DNA of 64,000 bases from an uncultured Pseudohongiella sp. (GTDB taxonomy: Bacteria; Pseudomonadota; Gammaproteobacteria; Pseudomonadales; Pseudohongiellaceae), in the NCBI GenBank assembly GCA_902591495.1, contig CACJAW010000001.1, positions 1 through 64,000 of the forward strand. Reading direction: 5' to 3'. Numbering within the stretch: the first letter of the stretch is position 1; the number at the start of each line of letters is the position of its first letter. The notes beneath the pieces are model-generated. The model made no database searches and was not told the DNA's origin. It saw nothing but the letters and a program-made list of their open reading frames with translations. A program made the position numbers and the translations under genes. Positions 17,295-40,769 of this stretch are shown piece after piece.

Positions 17295-17765
17295 ATGAAA
17301 ATGAATATTGCGCTAATGAATCAATACACTCAGTTCTTAGGTACTTTGGGTGTGATAGCTTCGCTTATTTTTGTGGGATTAGAACTTCGGCAAAATCAAC
17401 AAATCGCAATTGCGGGTCAGATTCAGGAACGTTTCAATACACAGGCTCAGATGCTTTTATCTCCTCTGCAAGACAATCGGGATATGCTCAGGATTATGAC
17501 CGTTAGACTTGGTGATATTGAGTATTCAATGACTGAAGATGAGCGATTAGCCTATATGCAACTTAATAGATGGCGCATAGCATCAACTGTAAATATATTT
17601 ACTCAATACCAAATGGGCATGTTGCCAGAAGGTACTTTTGAACAAGTCTTTCCAGCTATTACGAGTATGTATGAGAACTGCTCATTGAGATCATTATTTA
17701 ATATTTATGCAACGCCTGATTATCGGGAGTTTTTACAAACATTGAATGATCCATGTGATGAATAA
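17295..17765 (+). CDS. Small membrane-anchored protein, two-Cys paralog family (copy 1)
   Basis: Member of the paralog family that fills this island (group A). A positively charged start leads into one helix (YTQFLGTLGVIASLIFVGLELRQ, residues about 12-34), so the N-terminus should be cytoplasmic and the rest periplasmic. The remainder is helical and ends with the two conserved cysteines (YENCSLRSLF and LNDPCDE). 156 residues. ATG with GGATTA upstream. It is separated by 72 bp from the tight operon that follows and its N-terminus is more diverged from the other copies. Function unknown. Confidence 0.75.
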   Translation: MKMNIALMNQYTQFLGTLGVIASLIFVGLELRQNQQIAIAGQIQERFNTQAQMLLSPLQDNRDMLRIMTVRLGDIEYSMTEDERLAYMQLNRWRIASTVNIFTQYQMGMLPEGTFEQVFPAITSMYENCSLRSLFNIYATPDYREFLQTLNDPCDE

Positions 17766-17837
17766 AAATATGTCGCAATAGGTGCTTCTGAGGCTATTTT
17801 AAATCCTAATTAATGCAATTAACGGACATTACACATT

Positions 17838-18125
17838 ATGGGTGCTTTAACTAAGAAACGCGGAAGACCACAAGGTATGCGGGCTATACAGTTAGATTTG
17901 CAAGAACAGCTTTACAATCACCCCGACAACCACAAAGTCATTGAAACTATCTATCGTGCTGCCCTTGATGATAACCATAAGAACCAAGCTGCTGCACAAA
18001 AATTGCTGATGGATAGGATGTTGCCGATTAGTGTGTGCGATAAAAATGCCGATATTAGAGAGAAGATAACAATTAATATTTGTTCGGTTGAAATACCTGA
18101 CCGCGAAGAAAAGGTGGTTAACTAA
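17838..18125 (+). CDS. Phage-like small protein (possible DNA-binding/packaging type)
   Basis: 95 residues opening with a basic KKRGRPQGMRAIQLDLQEQL and continuing IETIYRAALDDNHKNQAAAQKLLMDRMLPIS. The 'repeated ALDD..K.QAAA.KLLMDR..P' layout is like short proteins encoded near terminase genes of marine phages; I cannot confirm that from memory alone. It heads the operon of paralogs: its stop overlaps the next start (TAATG at 18123-18127), so its translation is coupled to copy 2. Confidence 0.5.
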   Translation: MGALTKKRGRPQGMRAIQLDLQEQLYNHPDNHKVIETIYRAALDDNHKNQAAAQKLLMDRMLPISVCDKNADIREKITINICSVEIPDREEKVVN

Positions 18126-18586
18126 TGAAAAAAGAAAAAGTTAGTTTTGATGCCTTCATACAGCTGTTGGGTATGCTTGGAGTGTTGGGAGGTCTTATTT
18201 TTGTCGGGTTAGAGATGCAGCAGACTCAAACGATAGCACTTGCGGCTCAGGCTAACGCTAGAACAGAGATGCTGCTATCGAGGCAGTTGGTCAGCTTTGA
18301 GGGAAGAGCTGAGTTAATGCATAAAGTAACAACTTCTCAGGAAAAAGACTTAGATGAGTTCGAGCAGTGGGCGCAAAGAAGACTCTATAACTGGACTTAT
18401 GCTTTACAGGCCAATAACTATTTTCAATACCAACTAGGATTGCTTGATGACGAGCAATGGAAAGTGATTGAGCGACGAATCCAAATAAATTGGGATAGAT
18501 GTGAGATACGGCCACTATATACGCAAAATCCAGATACAGCTTTCGCAAATTATTTGGACTCTCTTACGGATAATTGCTCGGAGTAA
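18125..18586 (+). CDS. Membrane-anchored two-Cys paralog (copy 2)
   Basis: Group A paralog, 153 residues. Residues 1-11 are basic (MKKEKVSFDAF); a single helix follows (IQLLGMLGVLGGLIFVGLEMQ). The soluble part carries the family elements YNWTYALQANNYFQYQLGLL and the Cys pair in WDRCEIRPLY and SLTDNCSE. Start overlaps the preceding stop. Sits first of five head-to-tail copies separated by 3 bp each. Confidence 0.78.
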   Translation: MKKEKVSFDAFIQLLGMLGVLGGLIFVGLEMQQTQTIALAAQANARTEMLLSRQLVSFEGRAELMHKVTTSQEKDLDEFEQWAQRRLYNWTYALQANNYFQYQLGLLDDEQWKVIERRIQINWDRCEIRPLYTQNPDTAFANYLDSLTDNCSE

Positions 18587-18589
18587 ACC

Positions 18590-19057
18590 GTGAAAAAAAT
18601 TAAGGTTAGTTTTGATACTTGGATACAATTATTGGGAATGATTGGAGTATTAGGTGGGTTAGTATTTGTTGGCTTAGAAATGCAACAGACTCAGCGAATC
18701 GCGATAGCTGGGCAAGTGCAAGCACGAGCAGAAATGCAGGTAAATCGACTTCTCACTGGTCTTGAGGGCAATTTAGATGCCAACAGGCTTTTTTCCATTG
18801 GAACTTTTGATTATGAATTATTAAGTGATGAAGAAAAATTTATAGCAAGGGAGCTTCATCAGTGGAGAAGAATCATGTTAGAGAATAATTTTTTCCAGTA
18901 TCAGTCAGGATTATTCGCTGAAGACTATTGGCAACAGACTCAGCTGAGAATTCAAGGGTGGTGGGATAACTGTGTCTTACGCCCAGCAGGAGGAGGACAA
19001 GGTGTTACAGGTTTTTCGGAATACCTAAACTCTTTGCCTGATAACTGTGCGGAATAA
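18590..19057 (+). CDS. Membrane-anchored two-Cys paralog (copy 3)
   Basis: Group A paralog, 155 residues, with a GTG start at 18590 three bases after the previous stop. N-terminus MKKIKVSFDTWIQLLGMIGV, helix to about residue 31, then a helical domain with RIMLENNFFQYQSGLF and the Cys pair WDNCVLRPAG / SLPDNCAE. The first ~75 bases are nearly identical in DNA to copies 4-6, whereas the central region is not. It has a Gly-rich insert (AGGGQGVTGFS) between the two cysteines not seen in its neighbours. Confidence 0.78.
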   Translation: MKKIKVSFDTWIQLLGMIGVLGGLVFVGLEMQQTQRIAIAGQVQARAEMQVNRLLTGLEGNLDANRLFSIGTFDYELLSDEEKFIARELHQWRRIMLENNFFQYQSGLFAEDYWQQTQLRIQGWWDNCVLRPAGGGQGVTGFSEYLNSLPDNCAE

Positions 19058-19060
19058 AAA

Positions 19061-19522
19061 ATGAAAAGAATTAAGGTTAGTTTTGATACTTGGGTGCAAC
19101 TGTTGGGTATGTTGGGTGTACTAGGCGGATTAATATTTGTTGGTTTGGAAATGAGGCAAAACTACGAGATTGCCTTGGGTAATCAGCATCAAGGAAGAAC
19201 AGAATTAAGAGCTGCATTACTAATGTCGCCTCTCGAAGGAAATATAGATGCCGTTAAGGTGGAATTCTTAGAATGGGAGCAGCAAACTGAAGAGCAAAGA
19301 CAGATTAGCGTACAAATTCAAAGATTCAGGTGGGCGTTATTAGAGAATTTATTCTTTCAATATAATCTGGGGCTAATTTCTGAAGATGTATGGCGGCAAA
19401 CTGAAGGAAATATAAAGCGATGGTACGGCAGGTGTGAACTAAGGGAAGCCATGAATTTATCCTTAAGTAATCCAGCTTTCCAAGACTATGTAAATTCTTT
19501 TCCAGATATTTGTGCAGATTGA
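19061..19522 (+). CDS. Membrane-anchored two-Cys paralog (copy 4)
   Basis: Group A paralog, 153 residues, 3 bp after copy 3. N-terminus MKRIKVSFDTWVQLLGMLGV, one helix, then a variable domain (NYEIALGNQHQGRTELRAAL, RWALLENLFFQYNLGLIS) and cysteines in YGRCELREAM and SFPDICAD. Most closely related to copy 5 over the first 40 residues. Confidence 0.78.
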   Translation: MKRIKVSFDTWVQLLGMLGVLGGLIFVGLEMRQNYEIALGNQHQGRTELRAALLMSPLEGNIDAVKVEFLEWEQQTEEQRQISVQIQRFRWALLENLFFQYNLGLISEDVWRQTEGNIKRWYGRCELREAMNLSLSNPAFQDYVNSFPDICAD

Positions 19523-19525: not shown

Positions 19526-19996
19526 ATGAAAAATATTAAGGTTAGTTTTGATACTTGGGTGCAACTGCTGGGCATGTTAGGCGTGCTAGGCGGATTAATA
19601 TTCGTTGGTTTAGAGATGAGACAATCTCAAATTATCGCAATAGGCAATCAAGTTCAAGCTCGTGCGGATACGCAACTAGCAATACTAACAACGCCTTTAG
19701 AGGGTGACCAAAGACTTCTGTCATTCTTTAGTTTTGGTTCGATACCAAATGAATCGGATTTATCAGAGGAAGATAGATTGCTGTTCGAGCAGCTAACTCG
19801 TATACGAATGGCTAGCCTGCAAGCCTCTTGGCAGCAATTCAACCTAGGGTTATTGCCTGAAGACGCGTGGCGGCTCGCCGAAAGACGAATATTTATAATC
19901 TATGATAGCTGTCAGTTCCGAGATGTTTTCGAGCGTACGTCTCAGCCTGAATTTTTAGAGTACGTAAGGTCAAATTCATCAAGCACTTGTGAATAA
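19526..19996 (+). CDS. Membrane-anchored two-Cys paralog (copy 5)
   Basis: Group A paralog, 156 residues, 3 bp after copy 4. The first 35 residues (MKNIKVSFDTWVQLLGMLGV and the helix) match copy 4 almost exactly; the rest resembles instead the minus-strand copy at 30076 (ASLQASWQQFNLGLLPED here, VSLENAWQQFNLGMIPEE there). Cys pair in YDSCQFRDVF and SSSTCE. This chimeric resemblance suggests exchange of 5' and 3' parts between copies. Confidence 0.78.
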   Translation: MKNIKVSFDTWVQLLGMLGVLGGLIFVGLEMRQSQIIAIGNQVQARADTQLAILTTPLEGDQRLLSFFSFGSIPNESDLSEEDRLLFEQLTRIRMASLQASWQQFNLGLLPEDAWRLAERRIFIIYDSCQFRDVFERTSQPEFLEYVRSNSSSTCE

Positions 19997-19999: not shown

Positions 20000-20461
20000 A
20001 TGAAAAAAATTAAGGTTAGTTTTGATGCGTGGATACAGTTGCTAGGCATGCTGGGAGTATTGGGTGGATTAGTGTTTGTTGGCTTAGAGATGAGACAAAC
20101 ACAACAAATCGCTATCGCTTCACAAGTTGATGCGAGGAATCAAAGCCAACTTGCTAGAAGAAATATTTGGCTTGAGGGGCAGTGGGAGTTAGGACATAAA
20201 ATCACGACAACTCCATATGAGCAGCTCAGTGAAGCTGAAAAATTTGCAAGAAACCAAATGCTTCAATGGCAAAGGGATATTCAGACAAATAATTATTTTC
20301 AATACAGAATGGGTTTATTAACAGAGGAACAATGGGAGGTTGTGGCTTTTCGTATAGAAGGTCAATGGCGAGATTGCAGCACTAGACATACATACCAAAT
20401 GGAAGCTTTGGAAGCACCCTTCAGAGAATATTTACTTTCTTTAGATGACCCATGTAAATAA
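20000..20461 (+). CDS. Membrane-anchored two-Cys paralog (copy 6)
   Basis: Group A paralog, 153 residues, 3 bp after copy 5. MKKIKVSFDAWIQLLGMLGV, single helix, then a soluble part closest to copy 2 (EGQWELGHKITTTPYEQLSE; IQTNNYFQYRMGLLTEEQW). Cysteines at about 126 (WRDCSTRHTY) and 152 (LDDPCK). Its stop overlaps the ATG of the ribbon-helix-helix gene (TAATG), so the operon closes with a likely regulator. Confidence 0.78.
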   Translation: MKKIKVSFDAWIQLLGMLGVLGGLVFVGLEMRQTQQIAIASQVDARNQSQLARRNIWLEGQWELGHKITTTPYEQLSEAEKFARNQMLQWQRDIQTNNYFQYRMGLLTEEQWEVVAFRIEGQWRDCSTRHTYQMEALEAPFREYLLSLDDPCK

Positions 20462-20703
20462 TGCTTAAAGACTATCTTGAACAACGTCATATCACTTTAG
20501 CTTCAGGCAGAAGTTCTATTGCACTTGAGCGTGAGTATTGGAAAGCATTAGAAACGCTAGCCTATGAAGATGGTTGGCATAACTGGCGTGATTTCTTCTA
20601 TAGAAATATCTTACCTAACAAACCAGACGATATACCCCTAGCTAGTCATGTGCGGAAGTCTGTTACCGCTTTTCTTTTTTCTGAATACGATAAGGGTAGG
20701 TAG
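20461..20703 (+). CDS. Ribbon-helix-helix (RHH_4-like) DNA-binding protein
   Basis: 80 residues. ITLASGRSSIALEREYWKALETLAYEDGWHNWRDFFYR matches the RHH_4 layout: a beta strand with R.S.SLE, then 'E..YW.AL..LA..DG' helix, ending with the 'LASHVRKSVTAFLF' segment. Such proteins usually bind operators as dimers, so it may autoregulate the operon whose last gene it is. Its 3' half is copied in the fused relic at 31784-31929. Unlike its neighbours it has no membrane helix. Confidence 0.65.
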   Translation: MLKDYLEQRHITLASGRSSIALEREYWKALETLAYEDGWHNWRDFFYRNILPNKPDDIPLASHVRKSVTAFLFSEYDKGR

Positions 20704-21455: not shown

Positions 21456-21851
21456 ATGAAAAAACAACTCCTAATATTTTCTGTGCTGCTCTCCACGACA
21501 ACGTTTTCGTCACTGTCTTTTGGGGAATGGATTAAATCTGCAGAATCTGAAGATGGATCGTTTTACATCAATTTCAGTGATATCAGAGAAGCCGATGGAT
21601 ATGTTTATTGGTGGCAACTGAATGACTTAATAGAACCAAATAAGGGGACTCTTTCCGCTACCACATACCACGAAACTGACTGCCGATGGTTCCGGACCAA
21701 ATATTTATTTGGAAAGAGGTATGAAGCCAATATGGCAGAGGGAACTGCAGAACGTGAGTATGATTACGAAAATCCAAAGTGGATTTATCCAGCAGGACAC
21801 TTACAGGGAAAACTCGTGCAAGATGTTTGCGATTACGTTGCTAGCAATTGA
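21456..21851 (+). CDS. Surface-adhesin-E-like secreted protein
   Basis: 131 residues with signal peptide (MKKQLLIFSVLLSTTTFSSL, cleavage near SFG). The mature part GEWIKSAESEDGSFYINFSDIREADGYVYWWQLNDL, followed by SATTYHETDCRW and a C-terminal DVCDYV, is the pattern of the small adhesin-E family (W..v....g..yid...i....g.v..w.l.d, DC ... C). The two cysteines probably pair. It is one of few plus-strand genes in this part of the island, and its 3' end overlaps a relic of a paralog on the other strand. Confidence 0.6.
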   Translation: MKKQLLIFSVLLSTTTFSSLSFGEWIKSAESEDGSFYINFSDIREADGYVYWWQLNDLIEPNKGTLSATTYHETDCRWFRTKYLFGKRYEANMAEGTAEREYDYENPKWIYPAGHLQGKLVQDVCDYVASN

Positions 21852-21886
21852 ATCCACGTGTCTCGGTTAACTTTCTTCATATTCAT
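21833..21886 (-). pseudogene. Truncated 5' end of a membrane paralog (17 codons)
   Basis: The minus strand reads MNMKKVNRDTWIQLLAT and stops. This is the start of a group A paralog (compare MNMKKISVDTWIQLLG at 30543) cut off before the helix by the end of the plus-strand gene 21456-21851. Repeat R lies directly in front of it, showing that R is natively the 5' leader of this family. Confidence 0.75.
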
Positions 21887-21902
21887 ACCCAGAAGATACT
21901 AT
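21876..21902 (-). repeat. Repeat R, left half (split copy)
   Basis: Carries the TTCATATTCATACCC...GATACTAT half of repeat R and then stops abruptly. The missing half begins at 22387, after the lipoprotein gene, and both halves share ATACTAT. Confidence 0.8.
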
Positions 21903-22023: not shown

Positions 22024-22377
22024 CTAATTACCTATAACAGTGCTATCTGAAATTCGTCCGCGGTTGTTGAATATTGTCCGAATGTGAACTCTCGATGACC
22101 CTTCTGTGTCTACTTCCGACCACTCTCGAATGGTCTTGCAAACTCGCTTCCTTATTATCTTTGAAGATTTAGCTTCCAGTCGGCATTCTATTTGATTAAG
22201 GATAGGTTGATCGTTGTTGTAGGCAAGGATTTCCTCTTCAGTCATTGATTCGTTGAACCCATCCCCGTGGTTGCTGCTAGGTATAGTAAAAAGCGCTTTT
22301 TCATTAACCATCTCATTCGATGTACAAGAAAATAACAGCACAAATACAGACAGGATTACGTATTTTATGAAACTCAT
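22024..22377 (-). CDS. Small lipoprotein with conserved CR...RRVCKT motif
   Basis: 117 residues; signal peptide MSFIKYVILSVFVLLFSCTS with lipobox at LFSC. Near the C-terminus QIECRLEAKSSKIIRKRVCKTIREW matches a motif common in small gammaproteobacterial secreted proteins (C R.E..GS.I..RVC.T..EW); a diverged form is in the gene at 27662. Function unknown. The whole gene lies between the two halves of a split repeat R, as if inserted there. Confidence 0.65.
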   Translation of the reverse strand: MSFIKYVILSVFVLLFSCTSNEMVNEKALFTIPSSNHGDGFNESMTEEEILAYNNDQPILNQIECRLEAKSSKIIRKRVCKTIREWSEVDTEGSSRVHIRTIFNNRGRISDSTVIGN

Positions 22378-22385
22378 CGTGAGAG

Positions 22386-22414
22386 CATACTATAGATATC
22401 GGCTAATGAGGAAG
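22386..22414 (-). repeat. Repeat R, right half (split copy)
   Basis: CATACTATAGATATCGGCTA then ATGAGGAAG, the upstream half of repeat R. It is followed (plus strand) by GGTTGATATCAATTAG, also found after the intact copy at 27537-27585. Confidence 0.8.
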
Positions 22415-22543
22415 GTTGATATCAATTAGATACGACTGCTGTCAAAAGAGATGCTCTAAGAAAGCCGTTGGACTTCAACCGGCGTAGCAATTATTCTTCC
22501 TATTCTGTCTCCTTGCATTTTAAAAATATTTCGGAGGTGTTCC

Positions 22544-23599: not shown

Positions 23600-23649
23600 G
23601 AAGCAACAGAAAAGCAGAGTAGGGTTATTGTTGTTAGTAGTTTGTTCAT
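23596..23649 (-). pseudogene. Orphan signal-peptide module S (17 codons), truncated by the cyclase gene
   Basis: Reads MNKLLTTITLLCFSVAS then a stop created by the end of the cyclase gene. Nearly base-for-base identical to the 5' end of the intact gene at 26571-27023. Its ATG overlaps the sulfatase stop codon (ATGA), as if it had been the next gene of the operon. Confidence 0.75.
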
Positions 23650-25286: not shown

Positions 25287-25325
25287 CATGTGTAGATCTC
25301 TGAGGATAAATGAGGTTATTTTTCC

Positions 25326-25373
25326 CATATTCATACCCAGAAGATACTATAGATATCGGCTAACAAGGAAGCG
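25326..25373 (-). repeat. Repeat R, full copy
   Basis: About 48 bp: CATATTCATACCCAGAAG, then ATACTATAGATATCGG, then CTAACAAGGAAGCG on the plus strand. Read on the minus strand it is a leader ending GGGTATGAATATG in front of the sulfatase. It starts just 10 bp after the end of the upstream gene (25384). Confidence 0.85.
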
Positions 25374-25383: not shown

Positions 25384-25863
25384 TTACACTTCCCCAAACT
25401 CTTGAATAATCGATTTGATGAACTGACCAAAGCCGGGAGTGGTAACGTCAAAAGGAAAATAATTGAATATCTCAAGAAACCCGGGTTGCCGCAGAAGTTC
25501 ATTAGTGAGGGCCATTAACTGCTCCCTTTCCTGCGGGTAAGCAATATAACGAAATTCGAGATACTCAATTCTTCTCTGTACAATGTTTTGGAATTGACGG
25601 TGATCAGTGTTGTAAAACCTATCAAAGTTCTCTATTCCATTTTCGTCAATAAACTGACCGACTCTAACTAAAATATCAGTAACGTCTGACTGGTAAGCTG
25701 CCGGACCAAAAGCTGCATCGGTAGCACTGAATTCTGCGATTGCCGACTCTATTCTAATTGCCTCTGTATTTTGGTTGATCTCTATTACCAAGAATATAAT
25801 ACCCAATAGAACACCTAGGTTAGCGATTAATGTTAACCATTGGTTTAACCTTTCAAAGGGCAT
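25384..25863 (-). CDS. Membrane-anchored paralog, divergent group A type
   Basis: 159 residues. NQWLTLIANLGVLLGIIFLVIEINQNTEAI gives one helix followed by the family's 'EINQNT' turn; the remainder is helical (NTDHRQFQNIVQRRIEYLEFRYIAY) and lacks the C-terminal Cys pair. Similar small proteins with an 'IFVGxEIxQNT' motif occur widely in marine bacteria, without known function. It lies upstream of the sulfatase with R between them. Confidence 0.65.
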   Translation of the reverse strand: MPFERLNQWLTLIANLGVLLGIIFLVIEINQNTEAIRIESAIAEFSATDAAFGPAAYQSDVTDILVRVGQFIDENGIENFDRFYNTDHRQFQNIVQRRIEYLEFRYIAYPQEREQLMALTNELLRQPGFLEIFNYFPFDVTTPGFGQFIKSIIQEFGEV

Positions 25864-25953
25864 GCAATACTCCTTTGATTTCTAGACAAGTTTTTATCTT
25901 TCATTTTTCTAGCTCCAATTTTTTTGACATCGTCTTTTAAGTATATGAATAAG

Positions 25954-26469
25954 TTACTCACCTTTAACCCAATATGAATGATTCCTCGCAAAATCTTCCG
26001 AAGAAGTAGTTCTTGCGTCCAACTTCTTTGTCATTTCTTGATAGAAGTCATCAGCTAGTACGATTGATTCGTCATCCCACCATTTTCTTCTTCCGGGAGA
26101 TTGGAAAATAACAAGGTAGTATTGCTCCTTTGATTCATAGACCAATGGGTCTAGAGCACCTTGCTTGTGAAGTCTATATGACATCTCCCAAAAGCCAGCC
26201 TCTTTAAGGAAAAAAAGTGAAGCTACTGATCTTTCATCCTCTGATAGTGAGAGCCAATCCAAATTTGCCTTCCTGACTGTCGCCCACAGGCTTGGGTTTG
26301 CGCACAGCTCTTCACAAAGTGTCCTTAGATAATTATGCACGGCTATCGTTGATGAGCCTTCTAGTTGTTTGCTGTTATGACTAATTTGCCGCGACAAGTA
26401 GATCAACGTAACGATTACGCCAATCGCTCCGAGTAATTCTGCAACTGCGCCAAGTGCTTCCCAATTCAT
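25954..26469 (-). CDS. Membrane-anchored paralog, group B (NWEA type)
   Basis: 171 residues starting MNWEALGAVAELLGAIGVIVTLIYLSRQI: a glycine/alanine-rich first helix, then a helical soluble part (FFLKEAGFWEMSYRLHKQGAL; YYLVIFQSPGRRKWWDD). This 'NWEAxGAxxELxGAxxVxxTLxYL' pattern also opens 36196, 36897 and 37699. It lacks the Cys pair of group A. Related proteins of unknown function are common in proteobacteria. Confidence 0.68.
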   Translation of the reverse strand: MNWEALGAVAELLGAIGVIVTLIYLSRQISHNSKQLEGSSTIAVHNYLRTLCEELCANPSLWATVRKANLDWLSLSEDERSVASLFFLKEAGFWEMSYRLHKQGALDPLVYESKEQYYLVIFQSPGRRKWWDDESIVLADDFYQEMTKKLDARTTSSEDFARNHSYWVKGE

Positions 26470-26570: not shown

Positions 26571-27023
26571 TTAGCTATTGGGAATCAACATTGTATGATT
26601 TGAAAGAATCACGCAATCACCAGAATCTAACACATAAGTACGCATAAAATTATAGGTAAAAGTTTGACCATTTCTAAATACATCACTGTAGCCAAATACG
26701 ACGCCTGTATTTGAATGAATTAGAGCCGCGACATCATATTGTTCTCGCGTGGTTTTAGCTTCAGGATTTTTCCTCCAAGTATCTCCCAAGAAATCAAGGA
26801 GTTCTTGTCTAGAATTATCAATTTGACCGGCATGATTGTGTATCCATACAAAGTTTGGATGAAGCAGTTTAGTCAAGCCTTCGAGAGACTTCTCGACTAG
26901 AAGCCTCTCAAATTCAGCGTCTTTTTTAATAAGCGAATCCTGATTAATACAATTCCCCATTACGGCCGCATTAGCAGCAACCGAAAAGCAGAGTAGGGTT
27001 ATTGTTGTTAGTAGTTTGTTCAT
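26571..27023 (-). CDS. Secreted NTF2-like (DUF4440-type) protein
   Basis: 150 residues. Signal peptide MNKLLTTITLLCFSVAANA, the only intact gene copy of module S. The mature part (DAEFERLLVEKSLEGLTKLLHPNFVWIHNHAGQIDNSRQELLDFL...YNFMRTYVLDSGDCVILSNHTM) follows the DUF4440/SnoaL cone fold: helices, 'FVWIHN' strand, then a curved sheet. Such folds bind or isomerise small molecules or serve as immunity-like proteins; no catalytic assignment possible. 8 bp from the next minus-strand gene upstream. Confidence 0.75.
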   Translation of the reverse strand: MNKLLTTITLLCFSVAANAAVMGNCINQDSLIKKDAEFERLLVEKSLEGLTKLLHPNFVWIHNHAGQIDNSRQELLDFLGDTWRKNPEAKTTREQYDVAALIHSNTGVVFGYSDVFRNGQTFTYNFMRTYVLDSGDCVILSNHTMLIPNS

Positions 27024-27536: not shown

Positions 27537-27585
27537 TTCATATTCATACCCAGAAGATACTATAGATATCGGCTAATGAGGAAGG
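27537..27585 (-). repeat. Repeat R, full copy
   Basis: TTCATATTCATACCCAGAAG through CGGCTAATGAGGAAGG, followed by TTGATATCAATTAGG as at 22415-22430. On the minus strand the ATGAATATGAAAAAA start of a paralog runs into a stop after seven codons before the NTF2-like gene begins. Confidence 0.85.
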
Positions 27586-27997: not shown

Positions 27998-28103
27998 TCC
28001 TAAAATTTATAAGGGTAAAGACATTTGATTCACAAAAATAAATATCCGCATTAGCGGCAACAGAAAAGCAGAGTAGGGTTATTGTTGTTAGTAGTTTGTT
28101 CAA
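27978..28103 (-). pseudogene. Orphan signal-peptide module S with unrelated 3' tail
   Basis: Reads (L)NKLLTTITLLCFSVAANA then DIYFCESNVFTLINFRNEKA and a stop; the ATG of other copies is TTG here. It bridges the end of the paralog at 28107 and the start of the lipoprotein gene at 27997, which it overlaps. Probably a relic of a lost secreted-protein gene; translation of the 41-residue product cannot be excluded. Confidence 0.6.
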
Positions 28104-28106: not shown

Positions 28107-28571
28107 TCACCTGTCACAATTATCAGGAATGCTGTTTAGGAAATTTTGAAATGCAGTCTCAAGCGCTGCGCTAAAAAGATGCCGTCTTTCGCAGTTATCA
28201 TATAGTTGTTGAATACGAATTTTTGTCGGCAGCCATCGGTCCTCGCTAAGAAAACCTTTCTGATACATCCAAACTGAAGTTTGTTGCATCTGAAGTTGCC
28301 ACCTACCTTGAATGTCGCTAAGCCACTTTTGCTTTTCAGTTAACTGGCTGTAGTCTTCATAGGCGATGGCGTAAAGATCATCAGGATCAGCGGTCTCAAG
28401 AAAAGCCAAATTGTAGTCAGTTATTTGCTCAGCTCTTGACTGCATTTGACCAGCAAGGGCAATTTGCTGTGACTGGCGCATCTCAAGACCAACAAATATC
28501 AAACCGCCTAGAACGCCTAGCATTCCGAGTAACTGCATCAATACATCTAGACTAAAATTCTTCATATTCAT
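28107..28571 (-). CDS. Membrane-anchored two-Cys paralog (minus-strand copy)
   Basis: Group A, 154 residues from ATG 28571 (MNMKNFSLDVLMQLLGMLGV). One helix to GLEMRQ, variable soluble domain (ADPDDLYAIAYEDYSQLTEK; WQLQMQQTSVWMYQKGFLSEDRW) and Cys pair in YDNCERRHLF and SIPDNCDR. The start region keeps the first third of repeat R (TTCATATTCATACCC at 28561-28575). First of five consecutive paralogs on the minus strand. Confidence 0.78.
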   Translation of the reverse strand: MNMKNFSLDVLMQLLGMLGVLGGLIFVGLEMRQSQQIALAGQMQSRAEQITDYNLAFLETADPDDLYAIAYEDYSQLTEKQKWLSDIQGRWQLQMQQTSVWMYQKGFLSEDRWLPTKIRIQQLYDNCERRHLFSAALETAFQNFLNSIPDNCDR

Positions 28572-28583
28572 ACCCAAAAGGAG

Positions 28584-29042
28584 CTATTGATTCCACGGCT
28601 GTTGCTCAAAAAATTGTACAAAATCAGGCGTAAGTTGTGTTTTTACTTCCACCCAAAACTCTCGGAAGTAGTCATTGTTTAACAATAGACCTCCGCCGAT
28701 ATTTGTATTCCTTATGGTTTCTTCTGGGAGCAATCCAGACTGCCAAGACCTGAACAATCCTTCCCAAGTTCTAACAGTGGCAGTCTGCATAGAGTTAAGC
28801 CTTACTTGATCCTCTAGCGAAAAATCATTCACAGTTTCGCCCTCTACTGTTCTTGCTACTAGACTAGGAAGAACATCATCCGTTGCGACTTGCAAAGTAA
28901 GATCTTTCAAACTTTCAGCAAAATCAAGATAAGCCTGATTTCGAGTAAGATTGGTATTTTGATTGATTTCGACTCCAACGAAAATTAGAGAAAGAACAAC
29001 GCTTATGGTTCCAAATATTTCTGCTAGTCGGGAAGTCTTCAT
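28584..29042 (-). CDS. Membrane-anchored paralog, Cys-less type
   Basis: 152 residues, MKTSRLAEIFGTISVVLSLIFVGVEINQNTNLTRNQAY: single helix and 'EINQNT' turn as in 25384, but without the group A Cys pair. Soluble region VNDFSLEDQVRLNSMQTATVRTWEGLFRSWQSGLLPEETI carries the '...W...QxGLLPEE' element shared by all members. It sits between two two-Cys paralogs. Confidence 0.68.
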   Translation of the reverse strand: MKTSRLAEIFGTISVVLSLIFVGVEINQNTNLTRNQAYLDFAESLKDLTLQVATDDVLPSLVARTVEGETVNDFSLEDQVRLNSMQTATVRTWEGLFRSWQSGLLPEETIRNTNIGGGLLLNNDYFREFWVEVKTQLTPDFVQFFEQQPWNQ

Positions 29043-29076: not shown

Positions 29077-29541
29077 TTATTTCGAGCACACATCGGGTAA
29101 CTCACTGATGTAGTCACGGAGAGGCTGATAGCTCACCGAAGCGTCATATATATCACGCAGGTGGCATTCAGAATAACGAGCATTTATGTAACCTTCTACT
29201 TGACTCCAAAGAGCATCACTTAGGAGCTCCATTTCATTTTGGAAAAAATGATTTTCTAAAAGAGCCCAAAACCATCGCTGAATTTGCTGTCGGATTGCCC
29301 GTTGTTCGACTGTCATTTCACCCCATTCCACATTACTTGTGATTGCATCAGGTCCAATCTCTCCAAATAGTTCCAATTCTGTTAGGAGTCTATTTGAGAT
29401 CAGTTCTGTTCTCGCCTGTTGCTGATTTGCGAGGGCTATTCTTTGGGTTTGTTGCATTTCTAAACCTACAAATACTAACCCAGCAACAACACTGAGCATC
29501 CCTAGTAACTGAATCCAAGTATCTATACTGACTTTTTTCAT
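29077..29541 (-). CDS. Membrane-anchored two-Cys paralog (minus-strand copy)
   Basis: Group A, 154 residues: MKKVSIDTWIQLLGMLSVVA, helix, then a soluble part closest to plus-strand copy 4 (LLTELELFGEIGPDAITSNVEWGEMTVEQRAI; WALLENHFFQNEMELLS). Cys pair in YSECHLRDIY and ELPDVCSK. Upstream of its ATG lies an orphan signal-peptide module. Confidence 0.78.
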   Translation of the reverse strand: MKKVSIDTWIQLLGMLSVVAGLVFVGLEMQQTQRIALANQQQARTELISNRLLTELELFGEIGPDAITSNVEWGEMTVEQRAIRQQIQRWFWALLENHFFQNEMELLSDALWSQVEGYINARYSECHLRDIYDASVSYQPLRDYISELPDVCSK

Positions 29542-29543: not shown

Positions 29544-29606
29544 CTAGTAATCAGCAACCGCAAAAGCAAGGCAGAGTAGGGTTATTGTTGTTAGTAGTTT
29601 TTTCAT
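29544..29606 (-). pseudogene. Orphan signal-peptide module S (20 codons)
   Basis: Reads MKKLLTTITLLCLAFAVADY then TAG. The ATG overlaps the stop of the upstream paralog (TAATG), and the stop is directly followed by the next paralog's start region. Matches the modules at 23596, 26977 and 28060. Confidence 0.7.
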
Positions 29607-30064
29607 TAGTTTTGCCCAAGCCTGTCTCTTATTCTTTGTTTCCATTCAAAAGGCTGAATTCTCTCTGTCAAATCCAGCTCCTCCCATTTTTGGTATATGC
29701 CGCTTGCCAAGTCGTTGAGGGTTTGCTCCAAAGCGGCCTCTTCGAGAAAACCCTGTTGATACTGATAAAACTGTCCTTGCATTCGCCACTGCATAGCAGA
29801 GTGCCATGCTACAACTCTGCTTCTTTCGCCAAGCGTCAGAGAGTCAACGCCTTGAGAATCAAACTTTTGGAGTATTTCGGCGAAGTCTTCTGAAAGTGCA
29901 AGTTCTCTTTGTGCCTCTTGTATCTCGGAGTTTCTTGCTTGGTAGGCACTCGCCTGAGACAGCCTCTGGGATTGATTCAGTTCGATGATCAATGCCACTA
30001 AACCACCTAATACTCCCAACATACCAATCAACTGAATCCATACATCTAAGCTAACTTTCTTCAT
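29606..30064 (-). CDS. Membrane-anchored paralog, Cys-less group A
   Basis: 152 residues. N-terminus MKKVSLDVWIQLIGMLGVLG, helix with VALIIELNQSQ, and a basic/acidic helical domain (YQARNSEIQEAQRELALSEDFAEILQKFDSQG; WHSAMQWRMQGQFYQYQQGFLEEAAL). The C-terminus (IQPFEWKQRIRDRLGQN) has replaced the Cys-containing tail of its neighbours, so any disulfide is absent here. 11 bp from the next paralog upstream. Confidence 0.72.
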   Translation of the reverse strand: MKKVSLDVWIQLIGMLGVLGGLVALIIELNQSQRLSQASAYQARNSEIQEAQRELALSEDFAEILQKFDSQGVDSLTLGERSRVVAWHSAMQWRMQGQFYQYQQGFLEEAALEQTLNDLASGIYQKWEELDLTERIQPFEWKQRIRDRLGQN

Positions 30065-30075
30065 GGCTATTTATG

Positions 30076-30543
30076 TTATTCGCAATTATTTTTGGAGATA
30101 GATTTGAGGTATGAAAGAAAGCCTGCAGAAATTCTAGAATCAAATAGCGGGCGTATTTGACAATTATCATACATCGAAATCATTCTGCTTTCAGTTGCTT
30201 CAATTGTTTCTTCTGGAATCATCCCTAAATTGAATTGTTGCCATGCATTTTCGAGGCTAACTGATCTAATAAGAGTTAGTTGCCCAATAATAATTCTCTC
30301 TTCTTCGGAGAGAGTCTCAAGGTCAGGAACAGGAAATCTAAAAAGCTCCATTGCATCAGTATTGCCTTCAAGGGGGGCGGTAAAAAATGCCATGAGGGCG
30401 TCATTTCGAGCTTGTACTTGGCTTGCGATGGCAATCCTTTGAGATTGCTGCATTTCTAGACCAACAAATACTAAGCCACCTAGAACGCCAACCATACCCA
30501 ATAACTGAATCCACGTATCTACGCTTATTTTCTTCATATTCAT
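30076..30543 (-). CDS. Membrane-anchored two-Cys paralog, directly behind repeat R
   Basis: Group A, 155 residues: MNMKKISVDTWIQLLGMVGV with both start codons provided by repeat R. Helix, then a soluble part very like plus-strand copy 5 (SLENAWQQFNLGMIPEETIEATESRMISMYDNCQIRPLF). Cys pair in YDNCQIRPLF and ISKNNCE. This is the one place where R, start codon and a complete paralog are all intact, so it is the best model for the ancestral module. Confidence 0.8.
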   Translation of the reverse strand: MNMKKISVDTWIQLLGMVGVLGGLVFVGLEMQQSQRIAIASQVQARNDALMAFFTAPLEGNTDAMELFRFPVPDLETLSEEERIIIGQLTLIRSVSLENAWQQFNLGMIPEETIEATESRMISMYDNCQIRPLFDSRISAGFLSYLKSISKNNCE

Positions 30544-30583
30544 ACCCAGAAGATACTATAGATATTAACTAACAAAGGAAGCG
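30533..30583 (-). repeat. Repeat R, full copy (with intact paralog start)
   Basis: TTCATATTCATACCCAGAAG, ATACTATAGATATTAACTAA, CAAAGGAAGCG. Differs in the middle (ATTAACTAAC for ATCGGCTAAC). Its minus-strand end is the ATGAATATG start of the paralog at 30543. Confidence 0.85.
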
Positions 30584-32676: not shown

Positions 32677-32720
32677 ATTAAGTAAGCTTATAATATCTAT
32701 TTTCCTATAGTGAAGACGTT

Positions 32721-32765
32721 ATATTCATACCCAGAAGATACTATAGATATCGGCTAATGAGGAAG
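32721..32765 (-). repeat. Repeat R, full copy
   Basis: ATATTCATACCCAGAAGATA, CTATAGATATCGGC, TAATGAGGAAG. It lies between the serine hydrolase gene (ends 32809) and the start of the MotA-like gene (32676). Confidence 0.85.
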
Positions 32766-34525: not shown

Positions 34526-34572
34526 TTCATATTCATACCCAGAAGATACTATAGATATCAGCTAATGAGGAA
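34526..34572 (-). repeat. Repeat R, full copy
   Basis: TTCATATTCATACCCAGAAG, ATACTATAGATATCAGC, TAATGAGGAAT. Its minus-strand ATGAATATGAAA runs toward the GFA gene. Confidence 0.85.
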
Positions 34573-34962: not shown

Positions 34963-35020
34963 AAGAGCTAGCCCTAATAGAAAAGCAGGGTAGAGTTATT
35001 TTTATTAGAATTTTGTTCAT
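34952..35020 (-). pseudogene. Diverged signal-peptide module S
   Basis: Reads MNKILIKITLPCFSIRASSY and stops inside the start of the next gene (34962). DNA is recognisably related to the S modules at 26977 and 28060 (AAAGCAGGGTAGAGTTATT for AAAGCAGAGTAGGGTTATT). Confidence 0.55.
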
Positions 35021-35064
35021 ACCCTTCCTTGCTGTCGATTGGTTCTCTCATTCTAGTTAGAAAG

Positions 35065-35274: not shown

Positions 35275-35275
35275 T

Positions 35276-36022: not shown

Positions 36023-36083
36023 AATTTATCCTTCGTAAAAAACATTTTTCTGTTCATTAGCTGATTAATTTATTTACTGCTTT

Positions 36084-36130
36084 ATATTCATACCCAGAAG
36101 ATACTATAGATATCGGCTAACAAGGAAGCG
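36084..36130 (-). repeat. Repeat R, full copy
   Basis: ATATTCATACCCAGAAGATA, CTATAGATATCGGCTAACAA, GGAAGCG; like the copy at 25326. Lies between the gene ending at 36196 and the Bax-inhibitor-like gene. Confidence 0.85.
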
Positions 36131-36195
36131 TCCACCGAGAGTTGTGTGGTTGGTCCTGTAGTGTTGCCTATCTTTTGAGGCTATTAAAAGCTTGT

Positions 36196-36630
36196 CTAAG
36201 ACTCTTCGAGCAGCCTCACAAAATCCTCACTTAGAGCGCCTTGCCTTTGCTTCGCCACTGGCAATACCATACTACTTTTCAAAAATTGCATGTTATTTAT
36301 AATGATGTTGTTCCAAAGGTCTTCATCAACCTGTCCTTTTTTAAACAAGCAATAGAGGATTTCATGACCAAATATGAAGGCGGTTGCTAAGCTTGCGGAA
36401 TAGCTCTCCTCAACTGGGTCAAGTACTTCTCCACTTTCTATCTTGACTGAAAGTCTTGCAAACTCTGGGTGAAGCCCTGACTGCAGTATTTGTCCGATTC
36501 CATCGTGATATGTTGTTACCTTAGACACATCCGTACTATGCTTAATTTGCTTTGCCAAATAAATTAAGGAAACCAATACAGCTAAAGCTCCTAATATTTC
36601 ACCAATAGAACCAATTGCTTCTATATTCAT
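36196..36630 (-). CDS. Membrane-anchored paralog, group B
   Basis: 144 residues: MNIEAIGSIGEILGALAVLVSLIYLAKQI, one helix, then a helical domain (VSKVTTYHDGIGQILQSGLHPEF; FIFGHEILYCLFKKGQVDEDLW). Same first-helix pattern as 25954, 36897 and 37699. Function unknown. Confidence 0.68.
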   Translation of the reverse strand: MNIEAIGSIGEILGALAVLVSLIYLAKQIKHSTDVSKVTTYHDGIGQILQSGLHPEFARLSVKIESGEVLDPVEESYSASLATAFIFGHEILYCLFKKGQVDEDLWNNIIINNMQFLKSSMVLPVAKQRQGALSEDFVRLLEES

Positions 36631-36896: not shown

Positions 36897-37394
36897 TCAG
36901 TTGTTAGTATTTTTCGGAGTAATGATTTCTTCAACAAAGTTAACAAAGTCATTCTCAAGTGCAGGCTTAGCGAATGGACTGTTGTTCCACACGAGTTGAA
37001 CGCCAGGATTGTTGTAGAATAGTTGGACAACGCCCGTCAGCTCTTCGACGTCCTTTTTAGTCACCGTAGATGCATACTGCCCCCAGTGTAACCAGAACCA
37101 TGCAAGCATTGTCCAGTGCATGATGAAAGCTTCATCTTTGGAGATACCAAGCTCTTTAGAAAACATGTCATGTAAAGGACTTGTTCCCAGACCTTTTTCC
37201 AATGCTTGCCTAATTTCGGTGTTCGAGATGCTTGCGAGCATTATTTCCCTTACACCGTTGGAGCGATGGAGCCGATTGGTGTCAGCTGCTGCCTCTCGAG
37301 CCGCTCGAACCTGTATTCCAAAATATCCGAGAGTAAGTACAACTGCTAATGCACCAGTTATCTCCCCAATCGCACTAATCGCCTCCCAATTCAT
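36897..37394 (-). CDS. Membrane-anchored paralog, group B
   Basis: 165 residues starting MNWEAISAIGEITGALAVVLTLGYFGIQVR, then a helical part (TNRLHRSNGVREIMLASISNTE; IMHWTMLAWFWLHWGQYASTV). Ends FAKPALENDFVNFVEEII. Similar proteins are common and uncharacterised. Confidence 0.68.
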   Translation of the reverse strand: MNWEAISAIGEITGALAVVLTLGYFGIQVRAAREAAADTNRLHRSNGVREIMLASISNTEIRQALEKGLGTSPLHDMFSKELGISKDEAFIMHWTMLAWFWLHWGQYASTVTKKDVEELTGVVQLFYNNPGVQLVWNNSPFAKPALENDFVNFVEEIITPKNTNN

Positions 37395-37698: not shown

Positions 37699-38220
37699 TT
37701 AAATGGTTAAAGGCATATGAAAAGGCAAAGGGCCATTTTCATTATAGCTATCGCTTTTCATGTCTTCACGAATAAGATTAACTTGATCGACAAAATCCTT
37801 TGCATACGTGTCTAATCCCACAGAAATCCAATATTCTTGAACTCCTTGATTCTTTAAAAGATAACCTATTATTACTTTTACGGCATTAGAGGACTCAGAT
37901 TTTATCCCGCCATGTTTCGCTGCTTCTAAACAAGCTTCGCAGGCTGTAAATATATCGAATACTATAGCTGAGAATCGAAGTTTATTTTCAATCTGAAGAT
38001 CATTATAACTTTTAGTACCTTGAATCCATGCTTCCATTAAATCCGTAGAGTTAGCAATTCTCGATTGCCAGCCAACAATTCTATCTATAATGTCATTGAT
38101 AGCTTTATATTTGTCAGCAAGGGTATTTGCTCGTATCTGTAACGCTAAGTAAAGGAGAGTTGCTACCGTAGCTATCGCTCCAATCAATTCTCCTACACTT
38201 CCTAATTCACTGATTGTCAT
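37699..38220 (-). CDS. Membrane-anchored paralog, group B, last island gene
   Basis: 173 residues: MTISELGSVGELIGAIATVATLLYLALQIRANT, then a helical domain (INDIIDRIVGWQSRIANSTDLMEAW; FSAIVFDIFTACEACLEAAKHGG). It is the last gene before attR, which lies 248 bp further right across an AT-rich stretch with no other recognisable feature. Confidence 0.66.
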   Translation of the reverse strand: MTISELGSVGELIGAIATVATLLYLALQIRANTLADKYKAINDIIDRIVGWQSRIANSTDLMEAWIQGTKSYNDLQIENKLRFSAIVFDIFTACEACLEAAKHGGIKSESSNAVKVIIGYLLKNQGVQEYWISVGLDTYAKDFVDQVNLIREDMKSDSYNENGPLPFHMPLTI

Positions 38221-38467: not shown

Positions 38468-38490
38468 TTCGACTCCTGCCTCTTCCGCCA
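38468..38490 (+). repeat. attR: right copy of 23-bp selC attachment repeat
   Basis: Exact copy of the selC 3' end (TTCGACTCCTGCC...CTTCCGCCA) with no tRNA body before it; marks the right edge of the island. Confidence 0.9.
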
Positions 38491-38504: not shown

Positions 38505-39176
38505 ATGCAAATTCATATACCTATACTGCTTTTCATGACTATTGCACTTTTGGGAAGTTTTTGTCTCTCACATCCTGGTCGGACAGACGCTAACGGTGGT
38601 CATTATGATAGATCAGCCTCTATGTATCACTGCCACGACAGTACTTGCTTAGAAACCGTCGTTGATACAGACGCGAATCAAGCAGGAACAGAGCGATATA
38701 ACAGAAAGGAATGGAGGCATTGGATTGATGAGGACGGAGATTGTCAAAACACTCGGACAGAAATTTTGATATCTCAATCGGAGTTAAGCGTAGAATTTGC
38801 GACTTCCAGGCAGTGTCGAGTGGTGAAAGGTTCTTGGCTTGGTGGGCTTACGGGAATCCGTCTTTTAGATGCGTCAGATGTGGATATAGATCATGTAATT
38901 CCGCTTAGTTATGCCCATCGCCATGGAGGAGCGTCTTGGTCAGCACAAAAAAAAGAACAATTTGCAAACGATCCGCTAAATCTTCTCCCAACATATGATA
39001 TGGAAAATAGGGAAAAATCTGATAAGGGACCATCTGGGTATTTGCCTTCTAATAAAAATCTTGTCTATGCTTATATAAAACGATGGTATGAGATAGGGGT
39101 CAAGTATTCCATAAATATAGCATCAGACGACATGGTTATTATTCGAGATATAATTTCTAGCGTCGAAACCTTTTAG
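38505..39176 (+). CDS. Secreted HNH nuclease (DUF1524-like)
   Basis: 223 residues. Signal peptide (IPILLFMTIALLGSFCLS), a YHYH-like segment (HPGRTDANGGHYDRSASMYHCHD) and a nuclease core: YNRKEWRHWIDEDGDCQNTRTEIL, VKGSWLGGLTG, VDIDHVIPLSYAHRHGGASW and FANDPLNLLPTYDMENREKSDKGP. The D-H-V-I-P...N-D-P-x-N arrangement is that of secreted HNH/DUF1524 nucleases. It begins 15 bp after attR, so its promoter now lies in island DNA. Likely digests extracellular DNA. Confidence 0.85.
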   Translation: MQIHIPILLFMTIALLGSFCLSHPGRTDANGGHYDRSASMYHCHDSTCLETVVDTDANQAGTERYNRKEWRHWIDEDGDCQNTRTEILISQSELSVEFATSRQCRVVKGSWLGGLTGIRLLDASDVDIDHVIPLSYAHRHGGASWSAQKKEQFANDPLNLLPTYDMENREKSDKGPSGYLPSNKNLVYAYIKRWYEIGVKYSINIASDDMVIIRDIISSVETF

Positions 39177-39275
39177 TCCTTTCAGAGAAAATTTAAAACC
39201 GCCCAGAGAATAAGGCGGTAGAAATCTGACGGAAGTTTCTGTCACTTCCGTCAGATATGATGCGAGTTCATGAAT

Positions 39276-39662
39276 TCAGTCTCGACTGTAGACAGTGCCT
39301 ATAAGGGTTTTTGTGGCAAGTTCTATTTTTCCCTCAAAGTGTACCTTACCAACTACTGAATCTTCACCATCCCAATGGACGGTCCATTCATGTTCGCCGT
39401 CTTTTCTCCAGACACCGAAGCCGACACCAAGTCCGCGTGTTCCATCGGGTAAAAACGCTTCACCAGTCCAGGTGCATTCCCCACCTTCGGCATTGGCTTC
39501 ATGCATATTTTCCACCACGGTGAGAGTGCCGTAACCCTCACCATAGACGGGTAGGTCTTGGTCGCTCTTCCAGTTTATCTGCTTTACGATTTGTCCGTTG
39601 GAATTTGTAGAGTAAACAGTATTTATAAAGCTTAATGATACATCAGAAATTTTTTTAGACAT
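39276..39662 (-). CDS. Small beta-rich protein, relative of 30680
   Basis: 128 residues without signal peptide: VNTVYSTNSNGQIVKQINWKSDQDLPVYGEGYGTLTV then CTWTGEAFLPDGTRGLGVGFGVWRKDGEHEW. Clearly related to the island gene at 30680 and followed on the same strand by 39685. Function unknown. Confidence 0.62.
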   Translation of the reverse strand: MSKKISDVSLSFINTVYSTNSNGQIVKQINWKSDQDLPVYGEGYGTLTVVENMHEANAEGGECTWTGEAFLPDGTRGLGVGFGVWRKDGEHEWTVHWDGEDSVVGKVHFEGKIELATKTLIGTVYSRD

Positions 39663-39684
39663 TCTGTGCTCTCCTTAACTCAGA

Positions 39685-40050
39685 CTAAGATATTATGTAA
39701 ACATCCATAGTCATCGTTTTCTTAATTGGATCAATTACAATTTTTCCAAGATTCTGTGTTCCATCATTTATATTGACAAGTTCATCCATATGAAGAAGCG
39801 ATCCTTCTCGTCGCCAAACACCCACTGCGGCTCCAGAGGCCATAGAATCAGCGTCTATAAAGCCCCGGCCTTGTGCGGTATAAGTTCCACCAGATCGATC
39901 TGCGTTATAGCTTAGATGATAGCTAGCATATACGCGACCATATTCACCCATATGGCCTTCTGCTGTTAGCACAGTCTCTGTTTCACCAAAATCAACGGAT
40001 GTAATTTCCATGTCTGTTCTGGGTTGTCTTTCTTCTAGCGTGATTGACAT
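39685..40050 (-). CDS. Small beta-rich protein, relative of 31169/39276
   Basis: 121 residues: ITSVDFGETETVLTAEGHMGEYGRVYASYHLSYNAD, GGTYTAQGRGFIDADSMASGAAVGVWRREGSLLHM. Same strand pattern as the other three members but with a different start. Gap of 22 bp to 39276, so the two form an operon. Confidence 0.6.
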   Translation of the reverse strand: MSITLEERQPRTDMEITSVDFGETETVLTAEGHMGEYGRVYASYHLSYNADRSGGTYTAQGRGFIDADSMASGAAVGVWRREGSLLHMDELVNINDGTQNLGKIVIDPIKKTMTMDVYIIS

Positions 40051-40169
40051 AACTGCCTCCAGTGTGCAAAGTTCTACGTTTGTGTAATTAAGTGTCTGTC
40101 CAAAGTTGATTAGCCTAGTTTTTTGAAAATTAGAACGGCTTCAAGATTGAGGACAAATGTGATTGAGTA

Positions 40170-40361
40170 TTTCAGCTCCTAATAGTTGGTAAGGCAATTC
40201 ATGAGATGAATAAGTTTCGATCTCTTCGTTAGATTTTTTAGAAGAATCTTCATCAGGTGAATTTTAGAGTGAAATTATAATCCTAATAAATTTTTATAAG
40301 CTTTATGAATAAAATTAACGTAGACACTTGGATCCAGTTATTGGGAATGTTTGGAGTGATT
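40170..40361 (+). repeat. About 190-bp direct repeat, outer copy (partner 31650-31840)
   Basis: Upstream region and first codons of the paralog at 40305. Carries TTCATGAGATGAA at 40198-40210 and a weaker TTCATCAGGTGAA at 40249-40261, the same 50-51 bp apart as in the island copy. Confidence 0.8.
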
Positions 40362-40769
40362 GCCTCCCTCATTTTCGTTGGACTGGAAATGAGGCAGTCG
40401 CAAAGGATTGCGCTTGTCAGTCAAATGCAAGAGAGATCTTATACAGCCTCAAGTGAGGCATACGCATTCACAGAGGCTAATCTGGATTGGTTTTCCAGCA
40501 AGTTCAGCATTGCGCCAAGTATTGAGCTAACAACCGAGCAAAAAGCAGCTAGAAATTCTGAAAATGTAAGTTGGTTTATTTACGAGGCAGATTATTTCCA
40601 ATACTCACAAGGTTTAATGACCGAACCAGTATGGCAGGCAAAACTAAGGGCTATGGAAGTCAACCTGAAGAGGTGTGAGTACCCTGAAATATATCAAGTA
40701 CGAAGCCAACTTGTGGAGGATGAATTCAAGAGTATTTTAGACAGTATGCCCTCTCAGTGTGAAGATTAG
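40305..40769 (+). CDS. Membrane-anchored two-Cys paralog outside the island
   Basis: Group A, 154 residues: MNKINVDTWIQLLGMFGVIA, helix to VGLEMRQ, soluble part with WFIYEADYFQYSQGLMTEPVW and Cys pair in LKRCEYPEIY and SMPSQCED. It lies 1.8 kb right of attR. Its upstream region is duplicated in front of the fused relic at 31784, so this gene or its relative was probably the donor. Codon by codon it is the intact version of that relic. Confidence 0.78.
   Translation: MNKINVDTWIQLLGMFGVIASLIFVGLEMRQSQRIALVSQMQERSYTASSEAYAFTEANLDWFSSKFSIAPSIELTTEQKAARNSENVSWFIYEADYFQYSQGLMTEPVWQAKLRAMEVNLKRCEYPEIYQVRSQLVEDEFKSILDSMPSQCED

Follow-up and report, generated by a model that had tools for sequence, protein, structure and literature searches.

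According to two papers, the chromosomal integrons of Vibrio are established as reservoirs of anti-phage genes (PMC12409362) and the products of gene cassettes are often membrane-bound or exported (PMC10963911). Here we analyse a family of small membrane-anchored proteins, 17 intact copies of which lie in a stretch of 64,000 nucleotides (nt) from an uncultured Pseudohongiella sp. (contig CACJAW010000001.1, positions 1 to 64,000; hereafter the window), and compare the locus with the closest described systems. Sedentary chromosomal integrons are similar in that relatives of the window genome (G000) hold the family as single-gene cassettes between attC sites, opposite to the integrase gene intI, whereas the window array shows no attC match and G000 no integron-integrase match. 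Tycheposons and satellites are tRNA-anchored elements; like such islands and mobilizable elements, the window has a tRNA 3' end with a flanking repeat and accessory cargo, but no integrase was found for its island, and its units of cargo exchange tend to end at two constant boxes. CALINs are clusters of attC sites without an integrase, and the window likewise is an array of small units lacking one; it differs in having no attC, and its boxes do not fold. Finally, superinfection-exclusion and bacteriocin-immunity membrane proteins (which we take to be, as a class, small and membrane-anchored, with a variable domain and carried on mobile DNA) share these traits with the family, yet no convincing sequence, profile or fold match connects the two.

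The explanation that we prefer as a whole, at a probability of roughly 0.5, is that the copies are mobile cargo encoding stand-alone envelope immunity or exclusion proteins. All 17 open reading frames (ORFs) were found where the initial annotation had placed them (17295-40769), and its division into ten group A copies, three lacking the cysteines and four of an 'NWEA' type was recovered. On the plus strand the group A copies, recognised as ORFs and by alignment, are A01 (17295..17765), A02 (18125..18586), A03 (18590..19057, for which a structure model was also made), A04 (19061..19522), A05 (19526..19996), A06 (20000..20461) and A10 (40305..40769, outside the right repeat of the island described below); A07 (28107..28571), A08 (29077..29541) and A09 (30076..30543) are on the minus strand. 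Nonsynonymous and synonymous rates (dN and dS) add to the evidence for A05, A08, A09 and A10. The remaining types, recognised as ORFs and through profile comparison, are encoded on the minus strand: the cysteine-less B1 (25384..25863), B2 (28584..29042) and B3 (29606..30064), and the NWEA-type N1 (25954..26469, with a structure model), N2 (36196..36630), N3 (36897..37394, with dN/dS) and N4 (37699..38220). A07 likely starts at the ATG at 28571 and not at the TTG at 28577. Identity among the ten group A copies is 26-36% to A01 and 32-53% to A03. The cysteine motif given for this group, '..C.LR..', occurs as written in just four of the ten; a looser C-x-x-R is present in nine (A10 reads CEYP), and the C-terminal cysteine is found in all ten. 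Further family matches lie on contigs C4 and C5 of G000, an assembly of 2.1 Mb in 100 contigs with an estimated completeness of 66%.

The copies are not a collection of unrelated families, as profile-profile comparison and predicted models show the A, B and N types to be homologous over their length. The A type matches the cysteine-less type with a probability of 99.9 (E 2e-31) and the NWEA type with a probability of 98.4 (E 7e-15), and an iterated profile recovers 17 of 17 copies (having by then absorbed the other types). The models of A03 (mean predicted local distance difference test score, pLDDT, 92.5; predicted template modelling score, pTM, 0.80) and N1 (pLDDT 88.9, pTM 0.74) begin with six helices in a shared order, to which N1 adds two more at its end. 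In both, the first helix (49 or 55 residues) opens with a hydrophobic segment and is followed by five shorter ones. The description of the family as a membrane anchor with a variable domain, carried in mobile DNA, is borne out.

How the copies came to lie together is a separate matter. The initial annotation spoke of an expansion and read a constant start with a variable end as a sign of diversifying use; taken literally, this means that the genes were duplicated in tandem on the spot and that diversifying selection then acted on their exposed ends. The pattern itself is real among the ten group A copies, the N-terminal part being far more conserved than the remainder: the mean proportion of nonsynonymous differences (pN) is 0.19 in codons 1-40 against 0.51 in the remainder, and its synonymous equivalent (pS) is near saturation in both parts (0.83 and 0.77). 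Recent gene conversion of the N-terminal part was rejected, since pS is as saturated there as elsewhere; given this saturation, amino-acid constraint suffices to explain the conserved start. Local copying is also favoured by the arrangement of A02-A06, which stand head to tail with 3-nt gaps as DNA repeats of 62-71% identity.

The family tree is largely at odds with such an origin. In a FastTree phylogeny of 141 members (rows thinned at 80% identity, with many weak forks), 11 of the 17 window copies have a supported sister from another genome, namely A03, A05, A08, A09, A10, B2, B3, N1, N2, N3 and N4 (support of at least 83; for N1 and N2 the branches at the join are long). In this tree, from which the thinning had dropped the nearest foreign copies of some window rows, no window copy has a single other window copy as its sister. 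On the side of local duplication, one 38-row set (support 99) takes in nine of the ten group A copies, which therefore share an older branch, and A02, A06 and A07 stand together in one 7-row set. Relatives identified by name include uncultured Pseudohongiella, OM182 gammaproteobacteria, Woeseiaceae and others.

Diversifying use in the sense of positive selection is likewise contradicted by the substitution rates. A cross-genome counterpart of at least 55% identity was available for seven of the 17 members among the loci at hand, and in all seven pairs dN is lower than dS in the soluble part. The dN/dS values are 0.02/0.14 for A09, 0.02/0.16 for N1, 0.08/0.63 for A05, 0.06/2.28 for A10 and 0.44/2.17 for A03; for A08 dN is 0.18 with dS saturated, and N3 gives 0.044/0.188 against an intact copy and 0.05/0.32 against the copy at L037, which holds a stop. 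For these members we read this as purifying selection on separate, old subtypes. Local duplication with diversifying selection is consequently largely refuted and has become a very improbable account, and we are highly confident that horizontal gene exchange, and not local duplication, brought in the 17 genes as cargo.

The vehicles of this exchange can be seen in relatives, where the family occurs in true integrons. The single 6.6 Mb contig of G025 holds an integron integrase (370 bits, C1:3027022-3027960) and, within about 25 kb of the integrase start, 13 family matches on the opposite strand with attC sites among them. These sites presumably resemble the Vibrio type. A covariance model (R1), built from 10 G025 sites and no other genome, finds attC in the arrays of G062, G059, G060, G072 and G017, none of which was used in building it. 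In all six genomes family genes are therefore integron cassettes, flanked by attC and opposite to intI or a fragment of it. The clearest array is that of G062, where family genes make up six of the seven cassettes adjoining intI (one gene per cassette); a literature search, mostly outside subscription journals, found no like case of one family filling six of seven cassettes beside intI, and no description of the family or of integrons in this host group. In the G059 integron array (L186), family cassettes are mixed with several two-gene cassettes, which we take to be toxin-antitoxin pairs.

Across the genus, an integrase match (TIGR02249) at E 1e-20 was obtained in 21 of 84 genomes, 11 of them over the curated cut-off. 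The family was searched in 13 of the 21, that is, the 11 over the cut-off together with G017 and G098, which were added since family matches had already been seen on their integrase-fragment contigs. Of the 146 family matches obtained, 41 have an integrase or fragment no more than about 25 kb away and stand on its cassette side in cassette orientation (seven loci in six genomes; a hand count of rows, of which two from G059 are probably pieces of one gene), and 37 of 124 do so when G017 and G098 are left out. By chance, one or two matches would be expected in about 20 such flanks in 51 Mb. At E 1e-5 the family as a whole is found in at least 65 of the 84 genus genomes (with as many as 39 per genome among the matches listed) and in 8 of 298 other genomes of a phylum sample at E 1e-8 (1 or 2 matches each), a comparison in which the cut-off is stricter for the phylum and at most 12 candidates per phylum genome were scored.

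The array in the window is organised differently. Searches with R1 gave no attC match at E 1 in the island loci of G033, G019, G006 and G016 (L115-L122), and window genes are accompanied by two short constant sequences. The first, LEADER, consists of GATATCTATAGTATCTTCTGGGT followed by the start ATGAATATG and is promoter-like; allowing up to 3 mismatches, its 40-nt pattern has six copies in the window against none in shuffles, and 3 of 61 genus genomes contain a match to a 42-nt pattern. The second, SPFRAG (ATGAACAAACTACTAACAACAATAACCCTACTCTGC), opens a short signal-peptide-like ORF whose start reads ATGAACAAACTACTAACAACAATAACC; it occurs in 20 of 84 genus genomes, and its reversed control was never found. 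In several species the ORF is about 22 amino acids (aa) long and has the sequence MNKLLTTITLLCFSVAANADLL or one very close to it. At L147, L150, L157, L162, L164 and L169 the stop codon of this ORF overlaps the start codon of a group A-like gene, an arrangement that looks like translational coupling. LEADER stands directly before SPFRAG at L167. A family gene follows SPFRAG at 8 of 40 places and LEADER at 9 of 32 (low estimates, as these counts need the full downstream flank), and other genes follow more commonly. The boxes were also considered as hidden attC sites and rejected as such: they show no folding (z -0.6 and +0.5; two attC sites give -3.9 and -4.5).

All boxes placed in the window are on the minus strand. 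LEADER is found at the start of a gene that we take to be sulfatase-like (25324..25363), before a SnoaL_3 gene (27537..27578), in degenerate form at the start of A07 (28563..28594), at the start of A09 (30533..30572), before a MotA_ExbB-type gene (32718..32757), before a GFA gene (34526..34565) and at 36081..36120; a partial copy lies at 22369..22400, and another at 21846-21902, where sequence comparison shows it joined to the 5' stub of a group A gene. SPFRAG is found at 23614..23649, at the start of a DUF4440/SnoaL gene (26988..27023), at 28068..28103, in a 20-aa ORF just before A08 (29571..29606) and, with 6 mismatches, at 34980..35020. At L155, L156, L160 and L161 the gene before SPFRAG ends in nearly identical DNA (coding ..SDYQDCE), and a third conserved box may therefore exist.

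Comparison with G033 indicates that cargo tends to change hands at these boxes. The core DNA of the two genomes is 83% identical over 8.7 kb; the unit at 22387-23650 is 98.4% identical to G033 and the unit at 34968-36131 89.7%. Both units end within 17 nt of LEADER on one side (the partial copy at 22369..22400, inside which the first unit begins, and the copy at 36081..36120 for the second) and of SPFRAG on the other (23614..23649 for the first unit). Beside the unit at 22387-23650 the window has a presumably sulfatase-like gene where G033 has two family genes. Two other shared blocks, 25908-26504 (94%) and 29997-30575 (93%), end away from the boxes, the former at both ends and the latter at one.

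The same tendency is seen over 59 box loci, in which 35 of 97 distinct block ends are no further than 25 nt from a box; 300 shifted placements give 4.1 on average and 14 at most. A block end is found at 33 of 150 boxes and at 19 of 368 other ORF starts. These counts are not independent (the loci partly overlap, blocks within a genome are included and loci fetched by a box are over-represented), and the stricter box cut-offs of this test leave two ends of window units uncounted. A dedicated enzyme could act at the boxes; homologous recombination at shared starts is the simpler reading. It might further be argued that the window represents a cassette array of a second kind, without attC, in which two constant boxes of 32-40 nt flank each unit of one or a few genes, a proposal that we regard as rather doubtful at present.

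The cargo of the window is inserted at a tRNA gene. The tRNA-SeC gene (selC, the integration site) lies at 15923..16018 on the plus strand and is the sole Rfam match in the window at gathering scores. The left repeat (15997-16019) and an exact copy of the tRNA 3' end found by DNA self-comparison (38468..38490, plus) are identical at 23 of 23 nt and frame 22.5 kb, within which 16 of the 17 copies lie, A10 (40305-40769) being outside. The suggestion that the family might occur on other selC islands turned out to be correct, as two more genomes carry family genes adjoining tRNA-SeC (L033 and L063). In both, tRNA-SeC comes after what looks like the same pair of chromosomal genes and before family genes; the repeat is seen only within the tRNA, and a second copy was not seen at these loci. 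More generally, 14 of the 32 loci have a tRNA nearby (two pairs of loci are each one place; a raw count without a background rate).

Part of the island recurs elsewhere as a module. The A02-A06 run is framed by a 95-aa 'KRGRP' protein (17838..18125, plus), whose gene is conserved and precedes family genes in several genomes, and by an RHH_4 ribbon-helix-helix (RHH) protein that closes the run (20461..20703, plus). The KRGRP gene is found at 15 places, spread over 8 of 84 genus genomes (two of the 16 rows are pieces of one gene); a family gene on the same strand follows within 300 nt at nine of the 15 and within 50 nt at eight (for L202 and L212 the KRGRP position was taken from the genus-wide KRGRP search). 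The order of KRGRP, two family genes and RHH is repeated in G098 and G099, and in G006 a phage-type integrase (PF00589) is present at one KRGRP-family place. These modules, together with the tRNA site and its flanking repeats, are what might be expected of prophage or phage-satellite morons that block superinfection. A phage home found no support in the collections searched, as the A-type and cysteine-less profiles have no match in viral_contigs, nor A03 or N1 in the phages and plasmids collections; eight module proteins searched against PHROGs (not every island gene was scanned) gave one match, at E 0.047. We therefore consider morons an improbable source, and return to envelope proteins that travel as island and integron cargo.

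Several further features of the island were observed. Directly at the right repeat, 38505-39176 encodes a protein that looks secreted and carries a GmrSD C-terminal nuclease domain. Four related proteins (121-143 aa) make up a second family, encoded at 30680-31063, 31169-31600, 39276-39662 and 39685-40050 (all minus; phmmer E 1e-32 to 1e-6 between most pairs), and by eye similar proteins adjoin membrane-protein family genes in G016 (L122). The region 31644-31927 is chimeric: 31644-31845 is similar (84-87%) to the DNA before A10 and at its beginning, and 31823-31927 is similar (90%) to 20576-20680 in the RHH gene, as though the intervening genes had been deleted; sequence comparison places a 5' stub of a group A gene at 31784-31858 (plus). 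The major facilitator superfamily and phosphate transporter genes of the window (59926-62521) are about 44 kb from tRNA-SeC, and similar-looking ones in G006 (L033 17464-20373, by eye) about 10 kb. Given this difference in distance, the variable region may reach past the right repeat.

We now turn to what the proteins may do. Beyond residue 45, 98 of the 141 members have two cysteines, 36 none, six one and one four, and 62 of 65 group A-like rows combine the first cysteine with one in the last 12 residues. Cysteines are thus gained or lost as a pair (in rows that are mutually related), which points to a disulphide and hence to a periplasmic domain; we consider this side of the membrane the likelier one. 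In the mechanism that we propose, each protein has one membrane helix running on into a helical domain, and different gene lineages circulate between related marine bacteria, either as single-gene cassettes of integrons or on tRNA-anchored islands. In the window island the genes share a promoter-like leader and a signal-peptide start, with exchange tending to occur at the boxes. These steps are shown or well supported by the comparisons above. Each protein would then act by itself in the envelope, its domain facing the periplasm (held in group A by one disulphide), and would protect the cell against one particular incoming agent, such as phage DNA entry or an envelope-directed toxin; a cell would carry many copies since each would cover a different agent. 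Immunity or exclusion is put first because of the single-gene cassettes, the envelope position, the conserved subtypes, the number of copies per cell and the Vibrio precedents, and as a function it is tentative, with odds below even.

A number of observations weigh against this explanation. Even when matches up to E 10 are allowed, R1 finds no attC in the window (a very different attC could escape), and G000, at 66% completeness, has no match to TIGR02249 and none to PF00589 for an island integrase. In seven of the 13 genomes searched no family gene lies beside the integrase in cassette orientation, and G059 and G098 each have two matches near the integrase but on the wrong side. The shared older branch of nine group A copies belongs here as well. 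Charge around the helix gives no orientation (31 versus 33 of 96 A-like members, 16 versus 22 of the other 45). Neither a toxin nor a phage partner came to light (constant integron neighbours were not searched systematically), and most integron cassettes are not defence genes, 9 of 57 tested Vibrio cassettes being defensive in a study reported in PMC12409362. Known families give no convincing match either: in line with the initial annotation, which knew of no function for the family, it has at most weak single-member matches in Pfam and NCBIfam (10 of 17 members searched) or PADLOC and PHROGs (all 17). The best are E 0.021 in Pfam (one member, below the Pfam cut-off), 0.016 among PADLOC defence models (one of 17) and 0.0026 to a virion structural protein in PHROGs (one of 17), besides E 0.048 in NCBIfam (one member) and 0.067 to solved structures by profile (PDB chains). 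No fold match at E <=0.001 was found in the PDB with the A03 and N1 models, or in a viral predicted-structure library with one model.

Two other readings keep the genes as cargo and change their role. The copies might be adaptive cargo with a different envelope function (a chaperone, an accessory to a transporter or receptor, or stress protection), expressed according to dosage or condition through the leader. That LEADER also precedes SnoaL, GFA and MotA_ExbB types and the presumed sulfatase-like gene speaks for such a role, as does the fact that many integron cassettes are not defence genes; dosage, on the other hand, leaves the old, separately conserved subtypes unexplained. We regard it as an equal rival to immunity or exclusion, held with the same reserve. 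The genes could also encode orphan immunity proteins that counter toxins which diffuse or are delivered by contact (bacteriocins, type VI secretion system effectors), and not phage. Runs of divergent single-gene copies and a membrane anchor with a cysteine pair would fit this, as would a possible resemblance to orphan immunity arrays. No toxin gene was noticed beside the copies, though not every neighbour was scanned, and the 10 members searched in Pfam and NCBIfam matched no immunity family; this narrower alternative appears unlikely, if slightly less so than morons.

Overall, a family without a description in Pfam, NCBIfam, PADLOC or PHROGs is a frequent passenger of integrons and islands in one group of marine bacteria. 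If the window is indeed a box-framed array, cargo swapped in at the boxes would be expressed at once and often exported, and the membrane-protein family would be a frequent passenger of it and a bridge to true integrons. Such an array suggests that swapping at shared expression starts may build cassette-like arrays without a dedicated recombination site. Moreover, as the subtypes are conserved, stand alone in integrons and can be cloned singly, the old question of what most integron cassettes do becomes testable for a large family.

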